DNA of 22,908 nt from a virus. The translations under genes and the position numbers were made by a program. The notes beneath the pieces are model-generated. The model was given only the letters and a program-made list of their open reading frames with translations. It was not told the origin of the DNA and did not search any database. The stretch spans positions 1 to 22,908 of the IMG/VR virus record IMGVR_UViG_3300035698_013586. One strand, given 5' to 3'. Shown here piece by piece: positions 6,872 to 22,085 of the stretch; positions within the stretch are counted from its first letter, which is position 1, and each line of letters opens with the position of its first letter.

Positions 6872-7184
6872 TGTTATCACTTTTATCTAAACAATCATAT
6901 TCACTATGATTTATTTTATCACGAATGTCTGAATGTAATTGTTCTATATCTTTTTTTTTTAAATTCCCTACACCTCTTGGATAAAACCTATGTAAGTTTG
7001 TATGTAACAAGTATAACTCGTTTTTATTTAAACTTTCAAACGTCATTCCTTTATGTAAAGAACCAGTCGGGCGTAAACCCGAACTGGAATTTTTTGTAGG
7101 CGAGACATGACGGTCTAAACCGTCTTGATGAAGTAAACGTGTGTTTAATCTTTTTACTAATTCATTATAACGTATATCTTCCAT
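6858..7184 (-). CDS. Small unknown protein between portal and protease
   Basis: A 108-residue basic protein. The middle section HKGMTFESLNKNELYLLHTNLHRFYPRG followed by LKKKDIEQLHSDI (segments shortened) is predicted to be helical. No family is recognised. It starts two bases after the portal stop and overlaps the protease gene. Its DNA contains two GC-rich inverted repeats (see the separate entry) that are striking against the AT-rich background. The C-terminus DKSDNNDNN is low in complexity because it is read over the protease start. Confidence 0.6.
   Translation of the reverse strand: MEDIRYNELVKRLNTRLLHQDGLDRHVSPTKNSSSGLRPTGSLHKGMTFESLNKNELYLLHTNLHRFYPRGVGNLKKKDIEQLHSDIRDKINHSEYDCLDKSDNNDNN
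7063..7124. repeat. Two GC-rich inverted repeats inside a coding gene
   Basis: CCAGTCGGG / CCCGAACTGG (7063-7071 and 7078-7087) form a 9-bp stem with one bulged base. GACGGT / ACCGTC (7109-7114 and 7119-7124) form a perfect 6-bp stem with a 4-base loop. Both lie within 62 bp of otherwise AT-rich DNA in the gene between portal and protease. Confidence 0.6.
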
Positions 7185-7185
7185 T

Positions 7186-8604
7186 TTATTTTGTATCAGG
7201 ACTCACACTTGAAAACGGATCTGTTTTTTGTTTAGTTTTCACATTTTTTTGCGATCCGTCGGCACTACCTGGCTCTGCTGGAAAAAACGTATCTTTATCT
7301 GATTTTTTTATATCAGCTTCTACACTTTGTGTATTGTTATTATTTTTATCTTTTTCTAATCCTATCATTTCTCTAGCTTCATTTCTATCTATAATCCCAG
7401 AGTCGAACAGTTTAATGGCTGTTTCACCTAATAAACTCGCATCTTCAGCTAAATCCTCGAACATAATTTTAGGTGGTTCAAATCCGTTTAATTCACCATA
7501 CTCGATGAATATATTATTAAAAAATTCTTCAAGTACATGTTGATCTGCTCTAATAGAAGAATAAAAATGTCGTGATAAAACTATTTCTTGCGCTCTGTTT
7601 CCAGAACCAGACGTTCCACCTAATAAAATTCCTTTAGGAACACCAAAGCAACTTACTACGGCATCTAAAAAATAATCTGCATATTCATTGAAATTTTGTT
7701 TACCTGGAGATTTCATTTCTAAAGTCATACCTTCAGGAATAAACAATTGATCTTTACCGTTTATTTTTCCAAGAATCATACCCCATTGTGCTATTTGGTT
7801 TGGAGATTTTGTATTACAAGTTCCAACCCACATTGGGTTTGCGGTTTTAACAGCAGCTTCAGCCGCTGAATATTCCATGTTCATTAATCTAACAATAGTA
7901 TCATATCCTGGTTGGATAATACTTAAACCAGTAAATTCGTCACCTAACGTATTAAACTTAAAATGAGAAATAATATCTTTCGGAATATCTTTTTCTTGAT
8001 CAGCACCATTCTCGTCTGTGTAAAATTGAGTATATCCTACAGGTTCTTTATCTTTTCCTACTATGATTTTGTTTGATTCTTGATTAGTTCTAAATTTGAT
8101 TGTTAACGGATGAACGTGTTTCAATCTTAATATTTTTGTTTTGTTTAAATTATAAATTTTTTCTAAAAAACTATCACCTGCAATGTATGCGTTAGTTGAC
8201 GATTGCCAAATTAAATTGTTATCTCCACTATCGACAATAAGTTTTTTACAAAGTTCTATACCACGTTTATCTTCCCCAACGATACTATAACTTCTTGAAA
8301 TTATTGTATCAGATCTAACATTTATAGCTCTAGCAACAAACTGATTCAACAAATATAAATTAAACATTTGTTTAACTGTTTTTCTAACATTTGGCATATC
8401 ACTACCAGAAGAATGTAAAGTCTCACTTAAAGCAATCGCACTCGGATTTGTGATTGATGATTTTAAACGTTCTTCTTCTTGCCTTTCGAGAATTTCTTTA
8501 GCAACGTTAGATTGAACTTCTAATTCTTTGTCTAAACTTTCTTTAGTTCTTGTTCTCGATTCGCTGTTTTTTAGTGTTTTTGTTACCATGTTATTTTTTG
8601 TCAT
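7186..8604 (-). CDS. Portal protein
   Basis: A 472-residue protein, usual length for a phage portal. Recognisable features in order are an N-terminal helical region (ARAINVRSDTIISRSY), a wing-type domain with AYIAGDSFLEKIYN, 'LKHVHPLTIKF' and 'PKDIISHFKF', the helix 'GLSIIQPGYDTIVRLMNMEYSA', and the long C-terminal helix with 'FGVPKGILLGGTSGSGNRAQ', a segment typical of phage portals. The C-terminal 60 residues are polar and probably disordered. The portal forms the dodecameric DNA gate at the capsid vertex. It is the first gene of the leftward operon and directly follows the archaeal-type promoter at 8652-8672. Confidence 0.85.
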   Translation of the reverse strand: MTKNNMVTKTLKNSESRTRTKESLDKELEVQSNVAKEILERQEEERLKSSITNPSAIALSETLHSSGSDMPNVRKTVKQMFNLYLLNQFVARAINVRSDTIISRSYSIVGEDKRGIELCKKLIVDSGDNNLIWQSSTNAYIAGDSFLEKIYNLNKTKILRLKHVHPLTIKFRTNQESNKIIVGKDKEPVGYTQFYTDENGADQEKDIPKDIISHFKFNTLGDEFTGLSIIQPGYDTIVRLMNMEYSAAEAAVKTANPMWVGTCNTKSPNQIAQWGMILGKINGKDQLFIPEGMTLEMKSPGKQNFNEYADYFLDAVVSCFGVPKGILLGGTSGSGNRAQEIVLSRHFYSSIRADQHVLEEFFNNIFIEYGELNGFEPPKIMFEDLAEDASLLGETAIKLFDSGIIDRNEAREMIGLEKDKNNNNTQSVEADIKKSDKDTFFPAEPGSADGSQKNVKTKQKTDPFSSVSPDTK

Positions 8605-8672: not shown

Positions 8673-8772
8673 GGTTTTGGGGCTGTTTTTGGACATATAA
8701 CCTTTAGGTTATATCATTTTATAAGTGTTTAAACACTAATAGCTTTATTTCAATATCACCTTTATAAGGTTT

Positions 8773-8881
8773 TATAACACTTATAACACTTATAAGTATT
8801 TATAACACTTATAACACTTATAACACTTATAAGGTTTATAACACTTATAACACTTATAAGTATTTATAACACTTATAACAC
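8773..8881 (+). repeat. Nine TATAACAC iterons
   Basis: TATAACAC begins at 8773, 8782, 8801, 8810, 8819, 8837, 8846, 8865 and 8874. Spacing is 9 within groups (2, 3, 2 and 2 copies) and 18-19 between groups, which are separated by TTATAAG-type sequence. Repeats like this usually bind a multimeric protein, such as a replication initiator or a repressor. Confidence 0.8.
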
Positions 8882-8913
8882 CTTATATAACCTAAAGGTT
8901 ATGTCGGTAAAAC

Positions 8914-9024: not shown

Positions 9025-9402
9025 ATGGAAAATGAAACTAAAAAATTGAAAGGATTGATTTTAACGTATAAAGCGAAAGATAGCTATTCAAGAATACTTT
9101 TAAGTCACACTCTATTCGGAAGAGTATCGTACAAAAATTGTAAAGGTAAAAAAGTAGCGTACTATGCCCCTGGTATGCTAGACAATATACCGTTTCATCG
9201 ACTTGTAAAAGGTAAAATATTTATCGAAGAAAATTTATTTAATAAATTTGATAAAGATATGCTAAATATATTCGGTGAAATGAAATACGAAGAAAGCGAA
9301 CGTGACCTTGAAAATTTGTTTTTGATTACAGCAAAACAATATTGGCAAAACATAGTTAAAGAAAGAGGATATACATTCCATGTCAGGAAAAAATACGAAT
9401 AG
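9025..9402 (+). CDS. Unknown first gene of the rightward operon
   Basis: A 125-residue basic protein (MENETKKLKGLILTYKAKDS...). A mixed strand region with YYAPGMLDNIPFHRLVKGK (residues about 47-65) is followed by a helical end with QYWQNIVKERG. No family is recognised. It lies immediately after promoter P2 and overlaps the probable small terminase gene by 23 bases. First position in an operon beside repeats would suit a DNA-binding or regulatory protein, but that is a guess. The stop is TAG, rare in this window. Confidence 0.65.
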   Translation: MENETKKLKGLILTYKAKDSYSRILLSHTLFGRVSYKNCKGKKVAYYAPGMLDNIPFHRLVKGKIFIEENLFNKFDKDMLNIFGEMKYEESERDLENLFLITAKQYWQNIVKERGYTFHVRKKYE

Positions 9403-9952
9403 TGGAAAAATATTGAAAGTTGTAGAGTTAGGGCTTAATCATCGAGTATATGATGAAATGAAAAAACCTAACTTTTCAGTATTATCTTTGACCAGAGACT
9501 TGAACAACGAAGGTATAGAAATTAGCGCACAGTCAATTAGAAAATTTATCAAAAACACTAAACGTGCGCAAGCATCGCTTATATCTAGAGATTTGAGAGC
9601 TGCAAGCGAATATACGAAGTTAACTATGGACTATAGTACAGCTCTAAAAGATATTTTGAGTGAAGTTGAAGACGTTAAAAACAGTGCTAAGACTGATAAA
9701 GATTATACAACGTATAACCAACTTATCGGAAGATTAATGCAAGGTATTGAATTAATTGCAAAGTTGACTGGTGACATAAAACCTTCTGGAAGTGTAGATA
9801 TAAATATTATTTATAATCAGATAAATCAAGATATGGAAAAAGAAATGAAAACTATAAAATCTGACATTTTTTCTGGAAAGTTGATTGATGTAGATGCGGA
9901 AATTATATCTGAAGATAAAAAGCAAGAAGAAAAAATTAAAGGTGACAATTGA
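9380..9952 (+). CDS. Probable terminase small subunit
   Basis: A 190-residue protein. Residues about 33-60 (VLSLTRDLNNEGIEISAQSIRKF, shortened) look like a helix-turn-helix, the middle is a long helix pair with YNQLIGRLMQGIELIAKLTGD (shortened), and then PSGSVDINIIYNQIN, a C-terminal pattern often seen in small terminase-like phage proteins ('...LIAKLTGEI...NVNIIYN'). An AGAGGAT site precedes ATG 9380. Small subunits bind viral DNA and recruit the large ATPase/nuclease. Here the large subunit gene is about 10 kb away, at 20140. Other DNA-binding roles remain possible. Confidence 0.55.
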   Translation: MSGKNTNSGKILKVVELGLNHRVYDEMKKPNFSVLSLTRDLNNEGIEISAQSIRKFIKNTKRAQASLISRDLRAASEYTKLTMDYSTALKDILSEVEDVKNSAKTDKDYTTYNQLIGRLMQGIELIAKLTGDIKPSGSVDINIIYNQINQDMEKEMKTIKSDIFSGKLIDVDAEIISEDKKQEEKIKGDN

Positions 9953-11325
9953 TGAACACAAAAGTTATGATAATTGGAAGTGAAGGTCAAATTGGTTCTG
10001 CTATAAAAAAAATAGAAATAGAAGCTAATAATAGTTTAAATTTAATTGATATTGGGACAATAGAGATTATTGATAGCGAGATAGATGTGTGTCATGTTTG
10101 TATCCCATATTCAGATGAATTTGACGACGTTATAGCTTCATATTTAAAAAAATACAAACCAAATATAACAATAATACATTCTACTGTTGCTATGGGAACT
10201 ACTAAACGAATAGAAGCATTTACAAAATTAGATGTCGTACACTCACCATGTATGGGAATTCATCCACATTTATACGAAGGATTAAAAACATTTACAAAAA
10301 TAATAGGTGGAAAAAAACAAGCACTTGATAAAGCAATCATTCATTTTAATAACTTAAAAATTAAATATATAGCGTATGATAACGCAAAACATTCTGAACT
10401 TGGAAAATTATTAGATACATCTTATTATGCTATGAATATAAAATATTGTGATTTAGTAAAAAAAATATGTGATATAACTAATACTAGTTTTGATAATGTT
10501 TATACTAAAACTAATCAAATTTATAATGAAGGATATGGAAATTTAGGGTTAAATAATGTAATACGACCTATATTAGAACCTCCAACTAAAAAAGGAATCG
10601 GAGGACATTGCCTAATAGAGAATGCTCTAATTATAAGAGAAATGAATTTGGAACCTGGAAATGTAATAGCAGAAAATATATTAGAAATGGGTAAATATTG
10701 TGAAGAAAAAATAAAATACGAAAATAAAATATGGCTTGCGTGTGAATATTTAGGTAAAAATAAAACAGTAAATGAAATAGGTAAACATTGTGGTGTTTCA
10801 GGTACAACTATAAAAAAATGGCTTAAAATACATAAAATACCAAATAAAGGAGAGTTTCCATATTCAACCAATGAAAAATTATTATTAGAAGAACTATCAC
10901 AAGAAATGACATATAAAGAAATATCAGATTCTGGGTTATTAAAGAGATCTTATAGTTCTATAAAACAACAAGTTGCAAAGATGGGGCTTAAATCAATATA
11001 TAACCATGTCCCTTCTGAAGAAACTAGAAAAAAAATTAGTTGTACTTTAAGAGGTATAGAATTAACAGATTTTAAAGATTATATATCTGATGAAAATAGA
11101 AAAATAAGACAGTCTTTTGAATATATTAAATGGAAAACTGCGGTATTTGAACGTGATAATTATACATGCCAAAATCCAAATTGTGAGTATTGTGAAAATA
11201 AAAAAGGAAGTTATTTACATGCACATCATATTAAACAATTTTCAAAATATCCAGAATTACGATTTGTAATTCTAAATGGGATAAGTTATTGTTCTACATA
11301 TCATATGAGGCACGCACATAAATGA
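9952..11325 (+). CDS. Nucleotide-sugar dehydrogenase-like domain fused to an HNH endonuclease
   Basis: A 457-residue fusion. Residues 1-245 resemble UDP-glucose/GDP-mannose dehydrogenases: the NAD site IIGSEGQIGSAI, IIHSTVAMGTT, the central helix HSELGKLLDTSYYAMNIKY, and the catalytic-Cys segment GIGGHCLIENA (Cys220). The C-terminal sugar-nucleotide domain is missing. From about residue 253 the protein is a homing endonuclease: a helix-turn-helix (KTVNEIGKHCGVSGTTIKKW), a NUMOD3-like VPSEETRKKIS, and an HNH domain (CQNPNCEYC, LHAHHIKQFSKYPELRF, NGISYC, ending YHMRHAHK). The last zinc ligands are unusual (CSTYH). The start is ATG 9952, six bases after GGTGA, in TGATG overlap with the previous stop. 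It is either a true fusion or an endonuclease that replaced the enzyme's C-terminus. Confidence 0.75.
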   Translation: MNTKVMIIGSEGQIGSAIKKIEIEANNSLNLIDIGTIEIIDSEIDVCHVCIPYSDEFDDVIASYLKKYKPNITIIHSTVAMGTTKRIEAFTKLDVVHSPCMGIHPHLYEGLKTFTKIIGGKKQALDKAIIHFNNLKIKYIAYDNAKHSELGKLLDTSYYAMNIKYCDLVKKICDITNTSFDNVYTKTNQIYNEGYGNLGLNNVIRPILEPPTKKGIGGHCLIENALIIREMNLEPGNVIAENILEMGKYCEEKIKYENKIWLACEYLGKNKTVNEIGKHCGVSGTTIKKWLKIHKIPNKGEFPYSTNEKLLLEELSQEMTYKEISDSGLLKRSYSSIKQQVAKMGLKSIYNHVPSEETRKKISCTLRGIELTDFKDYISDENRKIRQSFEYIKWKTAVFERDNYTCQNPNCEYCENKKGSYLHAHHIKQFSKYPELRFVILNGISYCSTYHMRHAHK

Positions 11326-11606
11326 CACTCAGTAATTGGTTAATAGATTTTGTTAAAAAATATTCTTTTATAAAAGATGCGAAAATAGAAAAAGGTATTT
11401 TTAATATTTATTATGATAAAGATGGTAAAGAAAAAATAAAACGAATCTCTTGTAGAGCTAATAAAAAATTATTCATAGAACGAATTGAACAAATAAAAGA
11501 AGACATTGGATATTATGAAAAACGTGAAATACTTTCGAAAAAATTAAAAGAAGAAAAAAAGAAAAAAGGTTTTTCAATAGTATATTCATCAGGTGAGAAA
11601 AAATGA
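11322..11606 (+). CDS. Unknown 94-residue basic protein
   Basis: MTLSNWLIDFVKKYSFIKDA is followed by a strand (IFNIYYDKDG) and a strongly charged helix (KLKEEKKKKG). ATGA overlaps the dehydrogenase/HNH gene and also the next gene, so it is translated as part of the polycistron. No family is recognised. The sequence shows neither a membrane segment nor a cysteine motif. Confidence 0.6.
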   Translation: MTLSNWLIDFVKKYSFIKDAKIEKGIFNIYYDKDGKEKIKRISCRANKKLFIERIEQIKEDIGYYEKREILSKKLKEEKKKKGFSIVYSSGEKK

Positions 11607-11833
11607 GTAAAGAAACACGACTTGCACACTTCACTATCATTGACGGTACTGAAGATGAACTAAAATCATTAGGATTAGCATTAAAAGAAATTAAAAAGAA
11701 TTTAAATTTTGATATTGAATTTCTTGTAACATCAGATGTAGTAAGGCTTACTGATATTAAATATTTGTTAGCAGAACTTATGAAATTATATAAATTACAA
11801 AAAAAGGCAGAGAAGAAAAAAGATGACAAATAA
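11603..11833 (+). CDS. Unknown 76-residue protein
   Basis: A small alpha/beta-looking protein (HFTIIDGTEDELKSLGLAL ... FDIEFLVTSDVV ... LLAELMKLYKLQKKAEKKK). ATG 11603 overlaps the previous stop (ATGA) and has a strong AGGTGAG site. The Lys-rich end overlaps the next gene's start. No family is recognised. Confidence 0.6.
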   Translation: MSKETRLAHFTIIDGTEDELKSLGLALKEIKKNLNFDIEFLVTSDVVRLTDIKYLLAELMKLYKLQKKAEKKKDDK

Positions 11834-12899
11834 AAAAAATGTTGGATTTTTAAGTTATTGGGGTGTTGGGTCAGGGCTTGCGAACGTGACACTTAATTAT
11901 GTGAAAATGATTCATGAAGAATATAACGTGTTTATTTTAAAACAGTTCACTAACCCTATTACTGAAGATTTTAAAAATGTAAACGTAACTGTTACTGAAT
12001 ATCCGAATTATAATGTTAACGGAACGTTTTTTAAAAATTGGATTCTAGAAAATAAACTTGACGTAATAATTCTGAACGAATATGATCAATGGTCAACATC
12101 TCCAGATGATCTTATAAAAATTGCAAAAGAATTAAATTGTAAAGTATATGGAATTCTTGTAATGGAAAAATTCAAACCAGAACAGGCTTCTAGATATGAT
12201 CGAGTATTAGTAGAAACAGTATCATTTGAACGTCTTATGAGGCATCATAGAGTAAGAAATTTCACTCATGTACCTTATTCTATAGACTTAAAAGAATTCC
12301 CTAAAAACACACTTAAAACGTTAAATAAGAAATTTAAATTTTTTCATCCAAGTGGTAGAGGTGGAGTACATAAAAGAAAAAATACTCAAGTAGTATTAGA
12401 CGCATTCAAATTATTAGACAGGGACGATTGTGAATTAATAATCACATCTCAAGTACCGTTCGATTGTTACAACACTAAAGAAATTAATAATTTAACTATC
12501 ATTGATAAAAATCTAGATAGAAAAGAACTTATTAAACTTTATCAAACATCAGATGCAACAGTGTTACCAAGTAAATGGGAAACGATTGGAATACCAATAT
12601 TAGAATCTTTAGCTTGCTCTACGCCTGTGATAACTACAGACGCTGCACCAATGAACGAATTCGTTAGACATTGTATGAACGGATACCTATGTAAACCTAC
12701 TATGGTTAAATATCCTGAAATTAGTATATATGCAGCTGAGATTGAACCTGTTGAACTTAAAAATAAAATGATTATGATGTTAAACAAAGAATTGTATAAG
12801 TTACTTGTTAAAAATTCAAGATACGTAATAGACCAAATATACGATTTAGAAAAAAATAAACATTGTTTATTAGACTTTTTAAACGGTGACTTAAAATGA
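11823..12899 (+). CDS. Glycosyltransferase family 4
   Basis: A 358-residue GT-B enzyme. An N-terminal acceptor domain has the Gly-rich loop SYWGVGSGLANVTL. The donor domain starts near FKFFHPSGRGGVHKRKN (residues 172-187), where Lys/Arg would bind the nucleotide-sugar phosphates. The EX7E motif is intact: Glu253 and Glu261 in KWETIGIPILESLACSTPVI. GT4 enzymes move a sugar from a nucleotide donor with retention of configuration. It overlaps the methyltransferase gene by an ATGA junction and belongs to the carbohydrate cluster. Donor and acceptor cannot be predicted. Confidence 0.85.
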   Translation: MTNKKNVGFLSYWGVGSGLANVTLNYVKMIHEEYNVFILKQFTNPITEDFKNVNVTVTEYPNYNVNGTFFKNWILENKLDVIILNEYDQWSTSPDDLIKIAKELNCKVYGILVMEKFKPEQASRYDRVLVETVSFERLMRHHRVRNFTHVPYSIDLKEFPKNTLKTLNKKFKFFHPSGRGGVHKRKNTQVVLDAFKLLDRDDCELIITSQVPFDCYNTKEINNLTIIDKNLDRKELIKLYQTSDATVLPSKWETIGIPILESLACSTPVITTDAAPMNEFVRHCMNGYLCKPTMVKYPEISIYAAEIEPVELKNKMIMMLNKELYKLLVKNSRYVIDQIYDLEKNKHCLLDFLNGDLK

Positions 12900-13576
12900 A
12901 AATGTTATATAAACATTTAATCGACGTTGCATGTAGAAAGTTTGATATTACAAAAGAAGAGTTACATGAAAGAATTAGTACTACTCAAGAAAACTTAAAA
13001 ACCGAATGGCATAATAAAGATTCTATATTAGATTTTTATAAAAATACAGAAAATTATATATTCGATTTAATAAACTTTTGCGATCCAGAACGTGTAACAA
13101 ATTTGATACATCCTTTAGTGAATATTTCTAATAAAAAAATATTAGACTTCGGTGCTGGGATTGGAGAAATTGGTATGCAGTTATCTTCTTCTAATACTGT
13201 TTATTATTATGACATATGTGGACCGTCAATAGAATTTGCTAAAGAAGTATCTAATTATACAGAAAGAGAATTAACATTTTTATACACTGAAAACGTAACA
13301 TTAAATAAAAAGTATGATATTATTATTTGCGTGGATGTATTAGAACATCTAGAAAATCCTATGGAATATACAGTTAAAATGTTGAATTGTTTAGATCCTA
13401 ATGGAATGTTTTTAACTACTGGACTTAATTTTTCTACTGATGATCATATACCAATGCATTTGAAAAATAATAGAACTTATTATACAGAATTTATGCAACT
13501 ATTAAATACTTATTGTAATTTAACGTTTTTTCATAGTACAAAAAATGAAACTATTTATCTATGGGTGAAAAAATGA
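12896..13576 (+). CDS. Class I SAM-dependent methyltransferase
   Basis: A 226-residue protein with the SAM-binding motif I KILDFGAGIGEIGMQL (residues 81-96), acidic motif II in YYYDICGP (Asp106), and IIICVDVLEHLENP (142-155), the hallmark of the small-molecule/ubiquinone-type methyltransferase group. The first 75 residues are helical and may form a lid. A GGTGA site precedes ATG 12896. Between two glycosyltransferases, it probably methylates a sugar or another glycan group; protein or DNA targets are less likely from the motif set. Confidence 0.8.
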   Translation: MKMLYKHLIDVACRKFDITKEELHERISTTQENLKTEWHNKDSILDFYKNTENYIFDLINFCDPERVTNLIHPLVNISNKKILDFGAGIGEIGMQLSSSNTVYYYDICGPSIEFAKEVSNYTERELTFLYTENVTLNKKYDIIICVDVLEHLENPMEYTVKMLNCLDPNGMFLTTGLNFSTDDHIPMHLKNNRTYYTEFMQLLNTYCNLTFFHSTKNETIYLWVKK

Positions 13577-14508
13577 AGATAAGCGTATATTCGGAAGATC
13601 AATATAATAAAATTGTCTGGGACGAATTAAAATCTAAAGGATATAATGTTAGTTACAATACTATCGACAAAGATACAGATGTAGTGTTTTTAATGTGTAT
13701 GCCTTCTACTATGAAATTCGCTAACGAACTTAAACATAGACATGACGTTGATAGATTCGAATACAGTGGAAAAATAGTATGTAACGTGTTAGACATTCCA
13801 TATTGGAGATTAACGAATAACAATTGGAAAAAATTATATATGGATTATAAAGTTTATCTTGAACATAGTGATTATGTTACTACAATAAGCGAATTTACAT
13901 CGTCACAATTAAAAACACTTTGGTCAATAGAAAGTGTGCCTGTTTTTACAGTGTTTGATAATAAAAAACTAGAAAAGAATTATATTAAAACTGATAAAGA
14001 TAAAAATACTATCGTATGTTGTAGTAGATTTGTACCGCATAAACGAATGGAAAATGTTATTAGAGTATTAGAAAACACAGACTGGAAATTGAAAATTATA
14101 GGAAGTGGTTATCTAGAAAATGCTTATAAAAGTATGATAAAAGATTATAGAATAGACGGTGAAGTGTTAACTAACTTATCAGACAAAGAAGTAATAACTG
14201 AATTTTGTAAAGCTACAGTAGTAATCCATGTATCAATGTTTGAAGGATTATCTTTAGTACCGAAAGAAGCGTTATGGTGTGACACGCCAGTGTTAATTTC
14301 TGATATACCTGTTCATAGAGAATATCATAAAGATACTGTAACTTACGTAACCATGAACGATTTAGCTGATTTAAATAATAAAATTTTAAACAGATCCTGG
14401 AAAAAGTCTAACATTGGTAAAAATAATTTAAAAGAATATACCATACAAAAAACTGCGATTAAACTTGAAAAGTTTATAAAACAAATTGGTGATGATATTG
14501 ACAAATAA
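13573..14508 (+). CDS. Glycosyltransferase family 4 (second)
   Basis: A 311-residue GT-B protein: the N-terminal half includes YVTTISEFTSSQLK (101-114), the donor half begins TIVCCSRFVPHKRMENVI (146-163, Lys157/Arg158), then LKIIGSGY, and the EX7E motif in FEGLSLVPKEAL (Glu224, Glu232). I chose ATG 13573 rather than 13561, because GGTGA stands five bases ahead and ATGA overlaps the previous stop. It is slightly short for the family but complete in motifs. It likely adds a different sugar from the first GT4. Confidence 0.85.
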   Translation: MKISVYSEDQYNKIVWDELKSKGYNVSYNTIDKDTDVVFLMCMPSTMKFANELKHRHDVDRFEYSGKIVCNVLDIPYWRLTNNNWKKLYMDYKVYLEHSDYVTTISEFTSSQLKTLWSIESVPVFTVFDNKKLEKNYIKTDKDKNTIVCCSRFVPHKRMENVIRVLENTDWKLKIIGSGYLENAYKSMIKDYRIDGEVLTNLSDKEVITEFCKATVVIHVSMFEGLSLVPKEALWCDTPVLISDIPVHREYHKDTVTYVTMNDLADLNNKILNRSWKKSNIGKNNLKEYTIQKTAIKLEKFIKQIGDDIDK

Positions 14509-14908
14509 TTTAACATTAGTTTACGCTTACGTTTGTGGTGATATTTTACATGAAGGACATTTATTACAATTAACAAACGCAAAAGCAATGGGAGATAAAC
14601 TTATAGTAGGTGTATTAACTGATAACGCAGTAATGGAAAAAAAAGTGAAACCAATAATATCGTTTGCTCAACGGATGATATTAATTCAAGCACTAAGTTG
14701 TGTGGATGCAGTTGTTCCTCAACATGATTATTCACCTATTAATAATGTAAAATCGTTAGGAGTAGATATACTTATGGAGAGTGTATCACATCTTGGTAAT
14801 GATTATTTAAATGATTTAAAAAAAATAGATGTTAGAGTTATTATGACTCCATACTTTCCAGGTCAATCTTCATCATCTATTAAGGAGAATATTAAAAATG
14901 GAAACTAA
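14498..14908 (+). CDS. Cytidylyltransferase-like nucleotidyltransferase
   Basis: About 136 residues, one complete nucleotidyltransferase domain: the HxGH motif (HEGH, residues 18-21) after YVCGDIL, the strand KLIVGVLTDNAV, the RMILIQALSCVDAVVPQ helix/strand, and the late ISST-like motif as SSSSIKENI. The pattern resembles CTP:glycerol-3-phosphate cytidylyltransferases and also the cytidylyltransferase domain linked to phosphonate enzymes. Such enzymes make CDP-activated alcohols. I chose TTG 14498, with GGTGAT four bases ahead; ATG 14492 is the alternative but has no usable site. A glycerophosphotransferase-like gene two genes later suggests CDP-glycerol or a similar product. Confidence 0.7.
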   Translation: MTNNLTLVYAYVCGDILHEGHLLQLTNAKAMGDKLIVGVLTDNAVMEKKVKPIISFAQRMILIQALSCVDAVVPQHDYSPINNVKSLGVDILMESVSHLGNDYLNDLKKIDVRVIMTPYFPGQSSSSIKENIKNGN

Positions 14909-15278
14909 AAAAAGAAGTTTAACAAAATCTATTATTTGGCGAGTGTTTGGTGTATTTGTTTACGCAACCATTTTTTATATGTTTACACACGCTTGGGGTA
15001 TTACTTTAAAAGGAACATTAATACATCATAGTACATTTCTTATTGTATTTTTTTTACATGAAAGATTATGGATTAAACTTAAAAAAAATAATCATTGGTT
15101 AAAACCGTTCACGTATGAAATTATATTAGGCATGGGATTAGGTGGATTTATTGTATTTTTTTTAACAGGAAGCTGGAAAAGTGTTACAAGTATTACAATT
15201 ACTTACACAGTAGTTAAGCTAGCAATGTACTACATATATGATAAAATTTGGAACAAAATAAAATGGGAAATACAATGA
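14898..15278 (+). CDS. DUF2061-type membrane protein
   Basis: A 126-residue protein with about four hydrophobic helices. RSLTKSIIWRVFGVFVYATI (residues 6-25) and HERLWIKLK are signature parts of the DUF2061 domain. A second half repeats the pattern (WKSVTSITITYTVVKLAMYYIYDKIW, shortened), so two DUF2061-like units are joined. AAGGAGAA precedes ATG 14898, which overlaps the previous gene. DUF2061 proteins are membrane proteins of unknown function, some near carbohydrate or sulfate genes. It could be the membrane partner of the neighbouring glycan enzymes; its role is not known. Confidence 0.75.
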   Translation: METKKRSLTKSIIWRVFGVFVYATIFYMFTHAWGITLKGTLIHHSTFLIVFFLHERLWIKLKKNNHWLKPFTYEIILGMGLGGFIVFFLTGSWKSVTSITITYTVVKLAMYYIYDKIWNKIKWEIQ

Positions 15279-16255
15279 GAATTTTATATTATAATGGGTT
15301 TCATGTGGGACATTATCAACATATGTCGCCTTATTATAATAAACTTGGTGGTCTAGTTTATACTACAAGTATTATATCAGCTAAAAGATTGTCAGTAGAA
15401 TATAAAGGAATAAATGTAACAACTAAATTGTCAGATGTGTTTAAGTTTAATCCAGATGTTGTTATGCATGTTGATTATCATCCATGGATTCCTAATTTAA
15501 ATGCAAAAAATGTAATGGTATTTCATGCTATGGAAAATAAAGGATATTTTGCAGTTAAAAGATCTTGGAACTGTTGTGAAGATTTTGATTTATGTCTTCT
15601 TTATGGAAATAAAATCGAACAAGAATTTAAAGATAATGGATATAATATTAAAAGTAAAATCATTGGTTATCCACGATTTGATAAAATAAAAACAATAAAC
15701 AAAACATTATTTAATAATAATAGAAAAATAATATTAGTAGCACCAACTTGGAGTAATGAAAGTTTATTAACAAAATTTACAAACGAAATAATTAAAATGT
15801 CTAAAATTTATAATGTAATAGTTAAATTTCATTCAGCAACAATGAATTTTAGAGATAATAACGTGAATAATTTACAATATATAATCGCTAGACGTAGCGA
15901 TACATTGAAAGTGTTTGCTGATAGTGATATATTACCATTAATGAAATATTGTGATGCTATGGTTACAGATGTTAGCGGATGTAGTAATGAATTTATGTAT
16001 TTCAATAAACCGTTGATAATAGCAGATAATGGAGTTATACCAGTAGCAAGCGGAAAAAAACCAGACATTTGGCAAGTATTAAACGTTACAAAAAAACCAG
16101 AAGATCTGATTCAATTAGTAACATCTCAATTAAATAACGATGAAATGAAAGAAAAAAGATATAAACATTTTAAACATATGGTATATACAAATAAAAATAG
16201 TACAGCTACTGAACGTGGTATTACTGCAATACAAGAGATGGTTAATAATGAATAA
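15275..16255 (+). CDS. CDP-glycerol glycerophosphotransferase-like enzyme
   Basis: A 327-residue GT-B-like protein. Features shared with the Glyphos_transf family are NVMVFHAMENKGYF (79-92), IIGYPRFDKI (129-138), KIILVAPTWSNESLL (151-165), IVKFHSATM (182-190) and MKYCDAMVTDVSGCSNEFMY (223-242). The two His (84, 186) and the DVS.C..E segment correspond to the CDP-binding and catalytic region of the family. In bacteria these enzymes polymerise glycerol-phosphate from CDP-glycerol in teichoic acid synthesis. I chose ATG 15275 (ATGA overlap) over 15248. The nucleotidyltransferase just upstream could supply its CDP-linked donor. UDP-GlcNAc 2-epimerase-like or other GT-B identity is less likely. 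Confidence 0.7.
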   Translation: MRILYYNGFHVGHYQHMSPYYNKLGGLVYTTSIISAKRLSVEYKGINVTTKLSDVFKFNPDVVMHVDYHPWIPNLNAKNVMVFHAMENKGYFAVKRSWNCCEDFDLCLLYGNKIEQEFKDNGYNIKSKIIGYPRFDKIKTINKTLFNNNRKIILVAPTWSNESLLTKFTNEIIKMSKIYNVIVKFHSATMNFRDNNVNNLQYIIARRSDTLKVFADSDILPLMKYCDAMVTDVSGCSNEFMYFNKPLIIADNGVIPVASGKKPDIWQVLNVTKKPEDLIQLVTSQLNNDEMKEKRYKHFKHMVYTNKNSTATERGITAIQEMVNNE

Positions 16256-17051
16256 AACTGAATGTTTAATAGTAATAGCAAGTTTTGGTGATAATTGTTT
16301 AGATGAATTATTAAATACTATTAAAGCTTATACTAAAAACGTAGATTATAAAATACAAGTTGTAGACAATCATAAAGATAAACAAAAAATTGACGATTGT
16401 ATAATTCCGATTTGCATAAAACATAGTGTACCTTTATATTTAAACACTGAACTTACTGGATACAGTGACGTGTTAAACACTGGTGTGGTAATATCAACCG
16501 TAAATTCTAAATATGTATGTTATATAAGTCCAGACGTGTTAGTTACTAACAACTGGCTTAGAGAATTAATTGATTGTTATGAAAGAAACGAACGTAACAG
16601 TTGTGCGTTAGTAGCGCCGTTAGTGAAAAATTTTAATGGAAATTTTATACCAGAAATGCGTGAATATTTTGGTGACGCTAAAAAGTTAATTGGAAATGAT
16701 AATTTAATCTCAGATCCGCATACGTTAAACGGTGTATGTATATTACAAAAACGTGATACAATCCCGAATTTCAAATGGGACAAGAATTTCTTTCGTGCAT
16801 ATTGGGAAGATGTAGATTTATCTAAACAAGTACAATTTTGGAGTAAGAAACTTTATTTAGCTGGAAAATCTGTCATACTTCATAAAGTTAACCATAGTCA
16901 TGATACGATGAAAAAAGAAGGGTTTAATCCATCACAACTTGGCGCTAATAATAAATTTTATTATACACAAAAATGGAAATGTATATATGAAAATTTGAAT
17001 ATTAGCAAAATTAATGAAATGACGTTAGGAATAAAGTTTAGAAGGCAATAA
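16248..17051 (+). CDS. Glycosyltransferase family 2
   Basis: A 267-residue GT-A fold enzyme: LIVIASFGDNCLDELLNTIK at the start, VVDN near residue 38, YSDVLNTGVVIS, a DXD-like metal site in YISPDVLVTNNWL, FNGNFIPEM, then AYWEDVDLSKQV, where the Glu-Asp pair is the expected catalytic base region, and a final LILHKVNHSH-like segment (as ILHKVNHSH). It resembles rhamnosyl/GT2 enzymes of polysaccharide clusters. I chose ATG 16248, which overlaps the previous gene by eight bases; ATG-less upstream codons at 16215 add only a poorly supported extension. Confidence 0.8.
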   Translation: MNKTECLIVIASFGDNCLDELLNTIKAYTKNVDYKIQVVDNHKDKQKIDDCIIPICIKHSVPLYLNTELTGYSDVLNTGVVISTVNSKYVCYISPDVLVTNNWLRELIDCYERNERNSCALVAPLVKNFNGNFIPEMREYFGDAKKLIGNDNLISDPHTLNGVCILQKRDTIPNFKWDKNFFRAYWEDVDLSKQVQFWSKKLYLAGKSVILHKVNHSHDTMKKEGFNPSQLGANNKFYYTQKWKCIYENLNISKINEMTLGIKFRRQ

Positions 17052-17056
17052 ATAAA

Positions 17057-17944
17057 ATGAGATTTAATCCGCAACTTAAATTATTGAAACATAAAGAATT
17101 TTATGATTATATTTCAGGTAAAAAAACATATCCGATCTCAGTAGAAATTTCGTTGACAGGATACTGTGATGCTAATTGTGATTGGTGCTTTTATAAAGGG
17201 CATGAAATCCGTGAACATATTAAAACTGAAACTATCATTAATACTATAAAAACATTAAAAAAATTAGGATTAAAATCTATCGCATGGACAGGCGGTGGAG
17301 AACCAACGTTACATCCAGAGTTTAAAAAAATTACTGAATATGTTTACAATCTAGGACTAGAGCAAGGGTTGTTTACTAACGCATTAGGTAAAATTAATTA
17401 CGATCCTAAGTTATTCAAATGGATTCGTGTAAGTAAAACTAACATGAAATTTAATCTTGATAATCTTAAAACTCTTCGAGAGTGTGATACGTTAGGTATC
17501 TGTATAAATTATAAAAATAGTTTATATAACGACGTTTTAGATATAATAAAAAATGTTAATGACCATGTAGATTATATTCAAATTCGACCAATATTAAAAT
17601 GTAACGGTGAACTTACATCGACTGCTATGCCTGACATTGTTCATCCGAAAGTTAAACTTACTAAATATAAATTTGATGAATGTAACGTGTCGCATACGTA
17701 CACTAAATGTGAAGGTCACAATTTTATTCCGTTCATTTGGCATGATGGTGACGTGACACCGTGCGCATACATGAAAAACATTTATAACGCTGGTAATTTA
17801 TATAAACAAAACATTAAATTTATTTTAAATAAAATGCCGAAAACGTATGATGTATTACCGACGTGTCAACAATGTTGTAAAAATAATGAAATTAATAAAT
17901 TGTTGGCTAACATAAAAAAATTAGAAGATGTGAATTTCCCATGA
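17057..17944 (+). CDS. Radical SAM enzyme with C-terminal cysteine cluster
   Basis: A 295-residue protein with CxxxCxxC in GYCDANCDWCFYKGHE (Cys37, 41, 44) for the [4Fe-4S]/SAM site, and the GGGEPTLHP motif (79-87). The C-terminal part has additional cysteines (KCEGHNF, TPCAYM, TCQQCCKNN) in the style of a SPASM/twitch auxiliary cluster. The chemistry is not identified; neighbours suggest modification of a sugar or lipid-linked intermediate, and peptide modification is also possible, since SPASM enzymes often act on peptides. The iron-sulfur enzyme implies an anaerobic or microaerobic host, which is an inference. Confidence 0.8.
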   Translation: MRFNPQLKLLKHKEFYDYISGKKTYPISVEISLTGYCDANCDWCFYKGHEIREHIKTETIINTIKTLKKLGLKSIAWTGGGEPTLHPEFKKITEYVYNLGLEQGLFTNALGKINYDPKLFKWIRVSKTNMKFNLDNLKTLRECDTLGICINYKNSLYNDVLDIIKNVNDHVDYIQIRPILKCNGELTSTAMPDIVHPKVKLTKYKFDECNVSHTYTKCEGHNFIPFIWHDGDVTPCAYMKNIYNAGNLYKQNIKFILNKMPKTYDVLPTCQQCCKNNEINKLLANIKKLEDVNFP

Positions 17945-18462
17945 TAAAATTGATAAACGGTAACGGACAGTTAGGTACAATGTTGAAAAAGTATGATTAT
18001 TTAATTAAAAAAAATGATAAAATAATTTACGTTTATCATACTTGGAACGTATGGGATAAAAGTAACGAAGCGCAACAAGCAGAATATGAAAAGTTTAAAC
18101 AATTCGTGAATCATAATAATACTGAAAAAATAGTTTTTATATCTACGTTATCTACAAACAGTGACGAATATTTAAAATATAAACAACTTTCAGAAGAATA
18201 TGTATTAAAATATTGTAACTATCCTATTGTTATTAAAATACCTAACATGATAGGGAAAGGTGTATGTACAAAATTTTTAGATCAAAATACAGTTCCTCAA
18301 GGAGAGTTTGTGTTAGATACTATAACTAACGTAACGTTTAAATTGATTAAAATATTAAACGAACAAGAACATAAACAATTGTATGAACTAACTGGATCTT
18401 TAATTTCTGCTTATTTAGTTAAAAATTTAATACAGTTTGGTAAAAATAAAGGTGAAAAATAA
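17941..18462 (+). CDS. Short NAD-dependent epimerase/reductase-like protein
   Basis: A 173-residue protein with a Rossmann start IKLINGNGQLGTML (a Gly-rich motif like those of dTDP-4-dehydrorhamnose reductases), KIVFISTLSTN, and YLKYKQLSEEYVL with a YxxxK pair, then VIKIPNMIGKG. These are the order and spacing of extended SDR proteins, but the protein is much shorter than the usual 280-330 residues: the substrate-binding half is largely missing. It may be a reduced SDR or a catalytically changed one. It overlaps the radical SAM gene by ATGA. Confidence 0.65.
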   Translation: MIKLINGNGQLGTMLKKYDYLIKKNDKIIYVYHTWNVWDKSNEAQQAEYEKFKQFVNHNNTEKIVFISTLSTNSDEYLKYKQLSEEYVLKYCNYPIVIKIPNMIGKGVCTKFLDQNTVPQGEFVLDTITNVTFKLIKILNEQEHKQLYELTGSLISAYLVKNLIQFGKNKGEK

Positions 18463-19512
18463 ATGACTAAAATTTTAATACTGGGAAACATGATGGATAA
18501 ACAAACTGGTATATACATTCTTCAAGCTTGCAGAAGTGTAAGCTCTGACGTTGCTGCTATAGATATTAGAAGTATGCTGACAGAACTTGGACCTGTTAAT
18601 ACTCAAAGAGAAATATTCACAGAATTAGACGATCTTAATAAAACGCCTGATATTATTATAGTACTTAAAGGGCTTGAATTAACGTTTAATACGATTAAAG
18701 ATATTAAAGAAAAATATCCTAACGCTATATTAGTAAACTGGTTTTTCGATAAATATTTAGAAACTAAACCTATCTGGGACAGTCCTGAATATTTCGATAC
18801 ATTAAGTCTATTCGATTATTACTTTTGTAGTTTGAAAGGTGTAAGTACTAAACTTAACGAACTTGGTTTTAATAACGCTAAATATTTAGACGAAGCGTGC
18901 GACCCTGACTTTCATGGGAATGTCTATAGTAACAATTTCCAGAAAAAGAAGTATGGTGAAGATATAAGTTTTATTGGTTCTATCGGGTATACTAAACAAC
19001 ATCCAATGAGAATGCCAATATTAGAATCTATAGTGAAAGAAGGGTTCAAAATTAACCTTTGGGGTGAAATGATTGGTAACATTAGACTTATACCAAAAAG
19101 TTTGAAATATAATCATACAGGAAATAGTGCTATTAATGATAAACATAGTATGATTTGTCAAAGTTCGTTAATAAACATTGGAATAGATCAAGACATAGAA
19201 CTAGACAGAGGGTTCAGCGCACGGTTGTATAGAGTTCTTTGCGCAGGCGGAGTTTATTTATCAAATGCTACTAAAGGAATAAGTGATATGTTTAAAATCA
19301 ATGCACCTGGAAAAAAGGTCACTGGAAATCAGGATTTAGTAGTTTTTTACAATAACCAAGATTTAATAAACAAATTAGACTTTTTGTTAGAAAATGAAAG
19401 TGTTAGAAATAAAATAAGCGTGAACGGTCAAAAGAAAGTGATCGAGAATCATACGTTTATTCATAGAATAACTGAAATGCTGGAAATAATAAAACAAGGT
19501 GAAAAAAAATGA
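18463..19512 (+). CDS. CgeB-like glycosyltransferase
   Basis: A 349-residue GT-B protein. An N-terminal domain has KILILGNMMDKQTG and DIIIVLKGLELTF with IVLVNWFFDKY-like segment (as ILVNWFFDKY). The C-terminal half has ISFIGSIGYTKQHPMRMPIL, INLWGE, and SSLINIGIDQDIELDRGFSA followed by LYRVLCAGGVYLSNATKGIS (shortened): these match the CgeB/glycosyl transferase 1_2 arrangement. GGTGA lies eight bases before ATG 18463. The last large enzyme gene of the cluster. Donor unknown. Confidence 0.75.
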   Translation: MTKILILGNMMDKQTGIYILQACRSVSSDVAAIDIRSMLTELGPVNTQREIFTELDDLNKTPDIIIVLKGLELTFNTIKDIKEKYPNAILVNWFFDKYLETKPIWDSPEYFDTLSLFDYYFCSLKGVSTKLNELGFNNAKYLDEACDPDFHGNVYSNNFQKKKYGEDISFIGSIGYTKQHPMRMPILESIVKEGFKINLWGEMIGNIRLIPKSLKYNHTGNSAINDKHSMICQSSLINIGIDQDIELDRGFSARLYRVLCAGGVYLSNATKGISDMFKINAPGKKVTGNQDLVVFYNNQDLINKLDFLLENESVRNKISVNGQKKVIENHTFIHRITEMLEIIKQGEKK

Positions 19513-20139: not shown

Positions 20140-21809
20140 ATGAGAACATACAAACAAATTTATAAAGAATATACGGCATGGTTAGTGGAAAAAACTAACG
20201 ATGATAAATATAGTTATGATAATTTAATTTCTGTTTACGGTAAAGATGGTACATACAGTTTTCTTTATAAAAATATATTAGAACTATGTTACGATCCAAA
20301 GAATGGACTTTACTTTTTTTGTAAATTCATAATAGGAGATTTGATGGACATCGGATACCCTAATCCTTTTAGGTTTAATAATTTATTAAGAAAATGGGAC
20401 AAACTTATTAAATCTAATAAAAAGTTAGCTTTACTATGCGGAAGGGGGCATGGTAAGACTGTCCTGTTTTCTGAAATGCTTAACATATATGATATTTTTC
20501 TTTTTAAACATAGAAGGATAATAATAATTTCTGCAAGTCAAGATCAGTCAGTAAGAATCCTTGAAGAAGTGAAAACTATCATAGAAAATAACGAATGGTT
20601 AGTATCTAAAAAAAATTTTAAACGATGGGCAAGTACAAACATCGGATACAATGGTGGATATATAATAGTAGCAGGAATAGGTACAGAAATCCTTGGTCAG
20701 CACGTTGATCGGATTGTGATGGATGATGTACTTAGAACTGATAACAGACTTACTAACGAACAAATTGAAGATTATGTTGATATGAATTTAGATCCGATGC
20801 TGCTTAATAGAAAGGTCAATTAATTCTCGTAGGAACTCCGAAAGGATCTGATGATTTGTTTGCTACCATAGAATCTCGTAAAAAAGATAATCCTTCATAT
20901 CCGTGGATTATAGGTAAATATCCTGCAATTATTGATTATGAAAAAAAGATCATACAATGTCCTGATAGGTTTACTTGGGACGATCTTATGAATAAAAGAC
21001 TTTCTATGGGACCGCTTAAATTCGCTAGAGAATATCAGCTAGAATTTTATTCCAGAGACACTAGCGTGTTTCCTAGAAGAATAATAGATCCAGCTAAAGA
21101 TAAAGGTAAAGATATGATACTTCTTAATAAAGCTGATAAACGTACACCGAACTGGATATTTATTCAAGGTGTAGACGTTGCACGTAGCGGTAGCGTAAGC
21201 GCAGATTATACAGTATCTTTCGTACTAGCTTACGATACTATTAAACATACTAAACAAATAGTACACATTTGGCGTGAGAAAGGTCTAAAGATTACCGAAC
21301 AATCGAAACATATAGCTAATATTAATAGGCTTTTTGATAATTGTATGGCAGTAGTAGAAACTAATAACATGGGTCAAGATCTAGTTGATTGTCTCATTGA
21401 CGATTATAACGTACACGTTGAACCGCTGACAGTAGGTGGGAAAGCTATCAAAGATGAATTAGTAAGATTTTTAATAACTAGCTTCGAACATGAACAGTTC
21501 ATTATTCCTAGAGGAAACGAACATAGTCGAAGAATGATGTCAATCCTTGAAGAAGAATTGTCTAGGTACTGTGTAGTTAAAACTCCTAGCGGGAATGAAA
21601 AGTTTGATACTGTAGGTGGTGGGCATAATGATACTGTCTCTGCACTCATGTTAGCTAACAAAGGAACGCAAATAGGCGGTGTACCGTTCGCAGTTACAAA
21701 TTTCGGTCCTGACTCTAGAAGTGGTGATTTTTCTTCGTTAATGAACGGTAGTCTTAACAAACATGAAAGTGATCTTGTCCGGAAAATCAGAATGGGGATA
21801 ATAAAATAG
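20140..21809 (+). CDS. Terminase large subunit, split by a -1 frame change
   Basis: The frame from ATG 20140 carries a Walker A motif (GRGHGKT, residues 101-107), a Walker B motif (RIVMDDV, 191-197), and stops at TAA 20821-20823. The -1 frame is open from 20811 and continues without break: KGQLILVGTPKGSDDLF (the coupling motif III), then the RNase H-like nuclease with Asp in FIQGVDVARSG, Glu in AVVETNNM and Asp in GHNDTVSALM. The fused product would be about 556 residues, full length for the family. Reading AAG at 20812 and slipping back one base on AAAG restores the whole protein, as would one extra A in the AAA run. So either programmed frameshifting, a real mutation, or a base-calling error. 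No ribosome site precedes ATG 20140. Confidence 0.85.
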
Positions 21810-21829: not shown

Positions 21830-21890
21830 TGTCTTTTATATATTTATGACAATTTTATTATATTGAATTTAAACAAAGGAGGTGAAATTT

Positions 21891-22085
21891 ATGATGAATG
21901 GAAATGTAAAATTTTTTAATGCTAGTAAAGGATTTGGGTTTATTCTCGGTGAAGATGATAAAGAATATTTTGTACATCTTACAGGTCTTAATGCTGGAGT
22001 TACTCTAGAAGATAATGATGCTGTAGAATTCGAAACTGAAGAAGGAGATCGAGGACTTAAAGCTGTTAACGTAAGTAAAAACTAA
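21891..22085 (+). CDS. Cold-shock-domain protein
   Basis: A 64-residue CSD protein: MMNGNVKFFNASKGFGFILG carries RNP1 (KGFGFI) and EYFVHLTGL carries RNP2, then VEFETEEGDRGLKAVNV closes the barrel. It binds single-stranded nucleic acid and may act as an RNA chaperone. A perfect GGAGGTGA site lies six bases before ATG 21891, and a dedicated promoter lies just upstream, so it is probably highly expressed. The GTG at 21882 falls within the ribosome site and is not a start. CSD genes are less common in archaea and their viruses than in bacteria; host acquisition is possible. Confidence 0.9.
   Translation: MMNGNVKFFNASKGFGFILGEDDKEYFVHLTGLNAGVTLEDNDAVEFETEEGDRGLKAVNVSKN

Follow-up and report, generated by a model that had tools for sequence, protein, structure and literature searches.

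A locus of carbohydrate genes beside the terminase

We analyzed a 22,908-base viral fragment from IMG/VR (IMGVR_UViG_3300035698_013586; the whole fragment is referred to here as the window) in which a run of predicted glycan-synthesis genes is inserted among the genes for DNA packaging. The virion genes of the window are read leftward, and the terS-like gene, the glycan genes and the gene for the terminase large subunit (TerL) are read rightward (Table 1). The glycan locus is a compact same-strand run between the terS-like gene and TerL. Its adjacent genes overlap or almost touch (gaps of -41 to +5), and its G+C content is 2-4 points lower than that of the remaining sequence. Genes for an HK97-type capsid protein, a portal protein and TerL identify a tailed virus (Caudoviricetes).

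An initial annotation, made from the sequence alone, described about eleven glycan genes at 9952-19512. All of the genes it claimed were located, overlapping or abutting on the plus strand from 9949 to 19512, but two small open reading frames (ORFs) within the run (11322-11833) show no recognisable carbohydrate-gene character. Profile searches place nearly all of the enzymes in carbohydrate families. The two GT4 glycosyltransferases, the methyltransferase, the proposed cytidylyltransferase (listed as a nucleotidylyltransferase in Table 1), the DUF2061 protein, the glycerophosphotransferase-like enzyme, the radical S-adenosylmethionine (SAM) enzyme and the CgeB-like transferase all have significant Pfam E-values. 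The GT2 call also holds: the window protein falls just under the Pfam cut-off and its homologue in a related virus clears it (E 4.3e-12). The proposed short-chain dehydrogenase/reductase (SDR) fared less well, as it has no significant match in Pfam or NCBIfam; its assignment rests on a glycine-rich start and on its conserved place next to the radical SAM gene. The nucleotidylyltransferase scored 70.7 bits against TIGR02199 and 59.9 bits against TIGR01518, each under the curated cut-off, and the Pfam and NCBIfam scans assigned no substrate to this protein or to the radical SAM enzyme. A single-sequence search with the glycerophosphotransferase-like protein returned no viral relative. In a hydropathy scan, the DUF2061 protein is the sole clearly membrane-type protein of the window locus.

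The product of the first gene in the locus has two of the domains of a UDP-sugar dehydrogenase, the NAD-binding and the central one, together with a GGHC cysteine motif. Its profile matched UGDH chains in the PDB, and a model of the core (predicted local distance difference test, pLDDT, 85.7) aligned with UDP-sugar dehydrogenases at Z ~20 over ~240 residues and also with beta-hydroxyacid dehydrogenases at Z ~19. The first two domains of the nucleotide-sugar dehydrogenase proposed earlier are present, but the third domain is absent and a helix-turn-helix (HTH)/HNH endonuclease-like extension is found instead. Because the third domain is absent and the NCBIfam score (32.9 bits) lies below the cut-off (189.8), we refer to the protein as nucleoside diphosphate (NDP)-sugar-dehydrogenase-like and not as a member of the family. 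The extension (approximately residues 255-458; window 10715-11325) is fused in frame at the 3' end of the gene and looks like a mobile endonuclease.

The locus occupies the same site in related viruses

Searches starting from TerL, the capsid protein and a glycosyltransferase of the virion module recovered five related IMG/VR viruses of 34-111 kb: G001 (34 kb), G002 (109 kb), G003 (111 kb), G005 (97 kb) and G006 (47 kb). The genome of G003 is probably complete because it has a 114-base terminal repeat. Major capsid proteins are 74-82% identical to that of the window in the close relatives and 63-72% in the distant ones; for the terS-like protein the values are 57-61% (three close relatives) and 32-39% (two distant). 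The arrangement is the same in all six viruses: portal leftward, terS rightward, glycan locus, TerL. This order bears out the placement in the packaging region made in the initial annotation. A search of related viruses for the same gene order had been suggested as a check, and all five carry a locus at the matching site, with its ends kept and its middle swapped wholesale, neither scattered nor decayed. The gene order is therefore not due to chance, since five related genomes carry the locus at the same site. Among 50,697 phage records, the portal, capsid and CgeB-like proteins had no match, and the matches of TerL reached only ~25-32% identity.

Only three locus enzymes are common to the six viruses: the dehydrogenase-like protein and a GT4 at the left end, and the CgeB-like glycosyltransferase at the right. 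The left pair is accompanied by two small conserved ORFs (Table 1). The GHC of the cysteine motif is invariant across the six dehydrogenase-like proteins, which either stop after the central domain (244-300 amino acids) or run on into HTH/HNH sequence. The fusion seen in the window recurs in the distant G006 (L041:18078-19490); only its start is found in G002 (L016:7475-8377), and it is absent from G001, G003 and G005. The HNH part is apparently more conserved than the enzyme part of the gene. The left-end GT4 proteins are 29-55% identical across relatives. The CgeB-like proteins are 34-51% identical and in each virus are encoded by the last large gene ahead of TerL.

Between these ends, ~37 of roughly 50 locus gene families are confined to one virus. 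The count took in ORFs that passed a filter, which left out the two small window ORFs; those two are described here from direct ORF comparison. The middle of G001 encodes methyltransferases and a GT9 glycosyltransferase, along with the GT2, radical SAM and "SDR" proteins that it has in common with the window. That of G002 encodes GmhA, HddA-like, GmhB-like and HddC-like enzymes, which together lead from sedoheptulose-7-phosphate to activated heptose, as well as a GDP-mannose-dehydratase-type enzyme and a DegT aminotransferase that contains an intein. In G003 we found a sulfotransferase-like protein, WecB (over the curated cut-off), an epimerase, two GT2s, methyltransferases, a radical SAM enzyme and a CsaB-type pyruvyltransferase. 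In the G005 middle, DegT and a GT4 accompany a GDP-mannose-dehydratase-type enzyme that bears a LAGLIDADG insertion. The G006 middle includes an epimerase, two DegT proteins, a formyltransferase, an FkbH-type protein, a pyruvyltransferase, a hexapeptide transferase, a B12-radical SAM enzyme, GT4s and WecB. Some content recurs: the pairing of a GDP-mannose-dehydratase-type enzyme with a DegT aminotransferase is found in G002, G005 and G006, and the CsaB-type pyruvyltransferase in G003 and G006.

Table 1. Features of the window and of the related viruses; positions without a prefix refer to the window, and those with an L prefix to records of relatives.
Feature	Position	Strand	Support
GT-B-like glycosyltransferase in the virion-gene module (likely)	1172..2335	-	50-64% identical in 6/6 viruses
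Major capsid protein (query for finding relatives)	4132..5127	-	phrog_544 E 2.2e-12
Protease-like gene	6266-6880	leftward	family scans
Portal protein	7186..8604	-	Pfam Portal_Mu E 2.9e-13; phrog_9232 E 4.5e-17
Small conserved ORF 5' of terS-like gene, left boundary of packaging/glycan unit	9025..9402	+	homologue in 5/5 relatives
terS-like gene, HTH-type N-terminus, left flank	9380..9952	+	position kept in 5/5 relatives
NDP-sugar-dehydrogenase-like core with C-terminal HTH/HNH extension (458 amino acids)	9949..11325	+	NDP-sugDHase E 2.8e-8; core in 6/6 viruses
Small conserved ORF 1 of left flank	11322..11606	+	42% identity in G001; family in other relatives
Small conserved ORF 2 of left flank	11603..11833	+	49% identity in G001; family also in G003, G005
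Constant left-end glycosyltransferase, GT4 (GT-B)	11823..12899	+	Pfam Glycos_transf_1 E 6e-20; 6/6 viruses
SAM-dependent methyltransferase	12896..13576	+	Pfam E 1.4e-10; homologues in G006 locus (43%) and elsewhere in the G005 genome (45%)
Second GT4	13561..14508	+	Pfam E 3.5e-19; distant relatives in G003, G006 loci
Nucleotidylyltransferase, HxGH motif, RfaE-domain-II/TagD-like	14486..14908	+	Pfam CTP_transf_like E 1.2e-13; window virus only
DUF2061 membrane protein	14898..15278	+	Pfam E 3.3e-15; hydropathy
CDP-glycerol glycerophosphotransferase-like (TagB/F type)	15248..16255	+	Pfam Glyphos_transf E 6.6e-13, 48.8 bits (cut-off 22.1); singleton
GT2 glycosyltransferase	16215..17051	+	Pfam 20.9 bits (cut-off 23.3); homologues in G001 (48%) and G003 (55%; the one above the cut-off)
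Radical SAM/SPASM enzyme, CxxxCxxC motif	17057..17944	+	Pfam E 1.5e-9 (radical SAM), 2.2e-5 (SPASM); 55% in G001
Small Rossmann/SDR-like protein (weak assignment)	17941..18462	+	49% in G001, same position
Constant right-end glycosyltransferase, CgeB-like GT-B	18463..19512	+	Pfam Glyco_trans_1_2 E 1.3e-12; 6/6 viruses
Terminase large subunit, two frames (20140-20823, 20856-21809), right flank	20140..21809	+	phrog_38 E 5.9e-27, 1.4e-16
Giant tail-module proteins of relatives	L041:560-7507; L036:9304-16140; L023:7458-12524; L024:5036-7744		N-terminal membrane segment
Giant tail-module proteins of relatives	L015:1-3894; L015:13585-16482; L005:5716-8295		N-terminal membrane segment

Affiliation with archaeal viruses

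The initial annotation guessed at an archaeal virus, and the relatives support this. The evidence lies in G003, not in the window itself: G003 encodes RadA (Rad51 E 6.7e-75), a family B DNA polymerase, PCNA and an RFC-like AAA protein, and the window is tied to it by 74% capsid identity. Among phage records, the G003 RadA is closest to those of haloarchaeal tailed viruses (~30%). Because this set of replication genes is present in the 111-kb relative, we consider the hosts of the virus group to be archaea. Scans of GTDB genomes with the capsid protein and with the virion-module glycosyltransferase found no provirus and no host. By eye, we also noted an anaerobic ribonucleotide reductase and its radical SAM activase in G003 (33489-35862) and G006 (39567-41797), 64% and 35% identical, respectively, between the two viruses; these would fit an anaerobic host.

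Sequon-rich tail-module proteins and a probable glycosyltransferase in the virion module

The large tail-module proteins of the relatives start with a hydrophobic membrane segment or a signal peptide. In ten membrane-segment proteins of this module we counted 377 N-X-S/T sequons, which is 1.96 times the 192 expected when their sequences are shuffled (2.2-fold for NxT and 1.6-fold for NxS). The giant proteins listed in Table 1 show this roughly two-fold excess. Control motifs in the same proteins show no such excess (reversed motif 0.88, NxxS/T 0.87, DxS/T 0.94), and ratios elsewhere are close to one (other structural proteins 1.04, non-structural proteins 0.94, glycan-locus proteins 1.01). Of 164 proteins of at least 250 amino acids, the nine with the top sequon scores (z 3.9-7.4) are all of the membrane-segment tail-module type, and the next score is 2.1; among the nine is a G002 fragment, running off the end of its contig, that probably continues another such protein. 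Two of the sequon-rich proteins contain CBM96 or laminin-G domains. AglB/STT3 uses sequons solely on the outward-facing side of the membrane, so the excess is evolutionary evidence for export and N-glycosylation of these proteins. The stretches of the known archaeal tailed viruses HCTV-1, HVTV-1, HFTV1 and psiM2 that were examined held neither a comparable cassette nor a sequon-enriched protein of this kind.

One further probable carbohydrate gene, which was absent from the initial account, lies at 1172-2335 within the virion genes of the window. Its product has no sequence-family match in Pfam/PHROG-type scans. In a VIA comparison of its AlphaFold2 model (pLDDT 60), GT-B glycosyltransferases fill the ~35 top rows (Z 8-11.5, residues ~25-344), and the best Foldseek E-value is 4e-3; T4 alpha-glucosyltransferase is among the structural matches. 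The predicted fold makes a GT-B enzyme likely, short of proof. In G003, an 819-amino-acid fusion of GT2, GT4 and methyltransferase domains (L024:8666-11125) lies inside the tail module, as one more predicted glycosylation gene next to virion genes.

Possible function of the locus

We propose that these viruses carry their own glycan cassette at a fixed site between terS and TerL, with constant ends and an exchanged middle, and that it probably decorates their own exported tail-module proteins by means of the host AglB. The locus itself is well supported; the acceptor we infer, and we give the reading as a whole about an even chance. The cassette enzymes would work in the cytosol, the glycosyltransferases among them either assembling a lipid-linked oligosaccharide or capping one. 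The variable middle would set which activated sugars and decorations are produced. In the window, for example, it may supply a polyol-phosphate or heptose-like nucleotide together with its transferase, to which the second GT4, the GT2, the methyltransferase and the radical SAM enzyme could add, all possibly toward one glycan product. A host flippase would then flip the glycan, and host AglB would attach it to the late exported surface proteins of the virus, that is, the giant membrane-segment tail-module proteins, and perhaps to the host surface layer too. Exchange of the middle would alter the surface sugar, as in O-antigen serotype exchange. The stricter form of this proposal, in which a tailed archaeal virus exports late tail-module proteins that are N-glycosylated at the enriched sequons with a glycan supplied by a serotype-like cassette, is offered only tentatively.

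Several observations count against this proposal. The dehydrogenase-like protein lacks the third, nucleotide-sugar-binding domain in all six viruses. In the hydropathy scan, which covered every locus protein, no flippase-type membrane protein was seen, the only candidates for membrane association being the DUF2061 protein of the window and, in G002, one protein with a signal peptide. The STT3/AglB oligosaccharyltransferase (PF02516) is absent from all six records, while four archaeal control genomes were positive. Because no viral flippase or oligosaccharyltransferase was found, flipping and oligosaccharide transfer must come from the host. Tailed viruses do not usually export their tail-module proteins, and the sequon-rich proteins might be either virion fibres or cell-surface proteins. 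Moreover, these proteins are known from the relatives only: for the window virus the sequon argument is an extrapolation, because the fragment ends before the tail module.

The cassette could instead remodel the host surface, altering S-layer or lipid-linked glycans so that receptors are masked and related viruses are kept from superinfecting the cell; the virion would then not have to be glycosylated. The O-antigen-like content of the cassettes would suit this, as would exchange of the middle if related viruses compete. The carbohydrate-binding domains in tail-module proteins imply sugar receptors, and a report on viruses of methanogens cites serotype conversion by temperate phages as a parallel for their O-antigen-type genes (PMC9723712). 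However, the genes to which the locus is linked are those of packaging and the late phase rather than early or lysogeny genes, the hydropathy scan brought to light no polymerase, flippase or acyltransferase for surface modification in the loci, and the best acceptor candidates at the sequence level are viral proteins. We regard host remodelling as somewhat unlikely. Direct glycosylation of capsid or tail proteins in the cytosol by viral glycosyltransferases, with neither lipid carrier nor AglB, appears less probable again. It would account for the GT-B-like enzyme that each of the six viruses encodes within its virion module, for the fusion protein beside the tail genes of G003 and for loci devoid of membrane glycan machinery, and there is precedent in giant viruses, where it has been shown, and in mycobacteriophages, whose glycosyltransferases are thought to modify the capsid (PMC11256854). 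Yet it leaves the sequon excess of the membrane-segment proteins unexplained, and the O-linked acceptor sites that it would use are unrecognisable in sequence.

Viral DNA, which the initial annotation had also listed as a target, is disfavoured. Glycosylation of hypermodified bases as in T4, protecting against host nucleases, would be in keeping with several glycosyltransferases adjoining packaging genes and with the structural match between the 1172-2335 protein and T4 alpha-glucosyltransferase, but the latter reflects the shared GT-B fold only. The thymidylate-synthase fold (PF00303), the family of known deoxynucleoside monophosphate hydroxymethylases, is absent from all six records, including the 111-kb terminally redundant one, while 9 of 14 control genomes were positive. 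In addition, pyruvyl-, formyl-, sulfo- and polyol-phosphate-transferring enzymes of the kind seen here are not known for DNA bases. We judge this explanation very improbable. Lowest of all we place a collection of unrelated acquired genes that have no common product and are kept by hitch-hiking, the interval between terS and TerL being a hot spot for insertion. Most middle genes are indeed singletons, the G+C content of the locus is lower, and inteins and HNH genes mark mobile elements in the region; but every middle is biased toward carbohydrate genes, several contain complete ordered pathways, and all six viruses retain the same ends.

Relation to known glycosylation systems

Whole viral sugar pathways are well described in giant viruses of protists, and archaeal viruses have generally been discussed only for scattered glycosyltransferases and host-derived glycans. 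In the Megavirinae, clade-specific clusters of six to 33 genes make glycans that decorate the virion fibrils (PMC10117803; reviewed in PMC4691112). The loci described here resemble these in that sugar-nucleotide pathways, glycosyltransferases, methyltransferases and pyruvyltransferases are clustered and vary in composition between related viruses. They differ in belonging to archaeal tailed viruses, in occupying one fixed site beside the terminase with constant end genes and in their candidate acceptors, the predicted exported sequon-rich tail-module proteins. The conserved flanks and exchangeable center of sugar-nucleotide and transferase genes also recall bacterial O-antigen and capsule loci and archaeal agl clusters. 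Unlike these, the present loci are virus-encoded, and no Wzx/Wzy-, ABC-export- or AglB-like gene was found in them.

Viruses of methanogens and methanotrophic archaea carry genes for GT2, GT4, GT9 and GDP-mannose 4,6-dehydratase (PMC9723712); the parts of that report dealing with these carbohydrate genes present them as auxiliary and describe no positional locus, constant ends or acceptor. HRPV-1, SSV1, SSV19 and HRTV-DL1 are glycosylated archaeal viruses, and HRPV-1 bears a host glycan (PMC10384203). Like the viruses studied here, they have proteins with N-glycosylation sequons; however, they use or seem to use host glycans, whereas here the whole cassette is virus-borne and giant tail-module proteins are statistically enriched in sequons. 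In mycobacteriophages, glycosyltransferases of tailed viruses are likewise thought to act on virion proteins, but only two such genes are involved, with no sugar-nucleotide cassette. Our literature search, of incomplete coverage, turned up neither a fixed-site exchangeable cassette for tailed viruses of archaea nor exported tail-module proteins enriched in sequons.

A cassette with a fixed site, constant ends and an exchangeable middle in six archaeal viruses suggests that the surface sugar may be a fast-changing viral trait. The sequon excess provides a concrete acceptor candidate and raises the question of how a tailed virus uses proteins that cross a membrane. If the stricter form of our proposal is correct, the system would be a prokaryotic counterpart of the autonomous glycosylation of giant viruses, and it would imply a post-export step in the building or display of tailed-virus fibres.

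Other features of the window and relatives

The terS-like gene had no significant match in Pfam/PHROG-type family scans. TerL is uninterrupted in G001 (561 amino acids) and G003 (557 amino acids); in the window, a one-base shift within 20800-20860, either a sequencing error or a recent mutation, splits it into two frames. The TerL gene of G002 (L017 region, record 40990-45051) has two intein-like insertions, detected by alignment, one of them near the point that matches the window frame split. Other insertions of this type are an intein in the G002 DegT aminotransferase (L016:12317-14602; Pfam intein match) and the LAGLIDADG-bearing, intein-like insertion in the G005 GDP-mannose-dehydratase-type gene (L038:2434-4497).

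A second tailed virus fragment, from Ace Lake (G004; L027, IMGVR_UViG_3300035698_002051), is otherwise unrelated to the window. Of the IMG metagenome numbers looked up in the literature, only 3300035698 was traced, to Ace Lake in Antarctica. Directly after its capsid gene it carries a relative of the radical SAM enzyme (39% identity), several glycosyltransferase-like genes, an SDR-like gene and a GroEL-like gene. By gene content, this is a second predicted virion-adjacent glycan cluster.

The divergent intergenic region between the portal and terS-like genes of the window (8762-8887) contains ~12 copies of a 9-base unit, TTATAACAC, within a 64-base higher unit. This array is a candidate promoter or operator array and is not evident in the relatives. 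An ORF adjoining the capsid gene (3375-4061) looks, by eye, like a mobile endonuclease gene; a 30%-identical counterpart occupies the same place in G002, and none is found in G001. The charged, scaffold-like gene upstream of the capsid gene, with KTSKAVEE repeats, contains 45-base direct repeats (5803-5919). Just 3' of TerL, a cold-shock domain protein is encoded at 21882-22085 (Pfam CSD E 7.9e-18).

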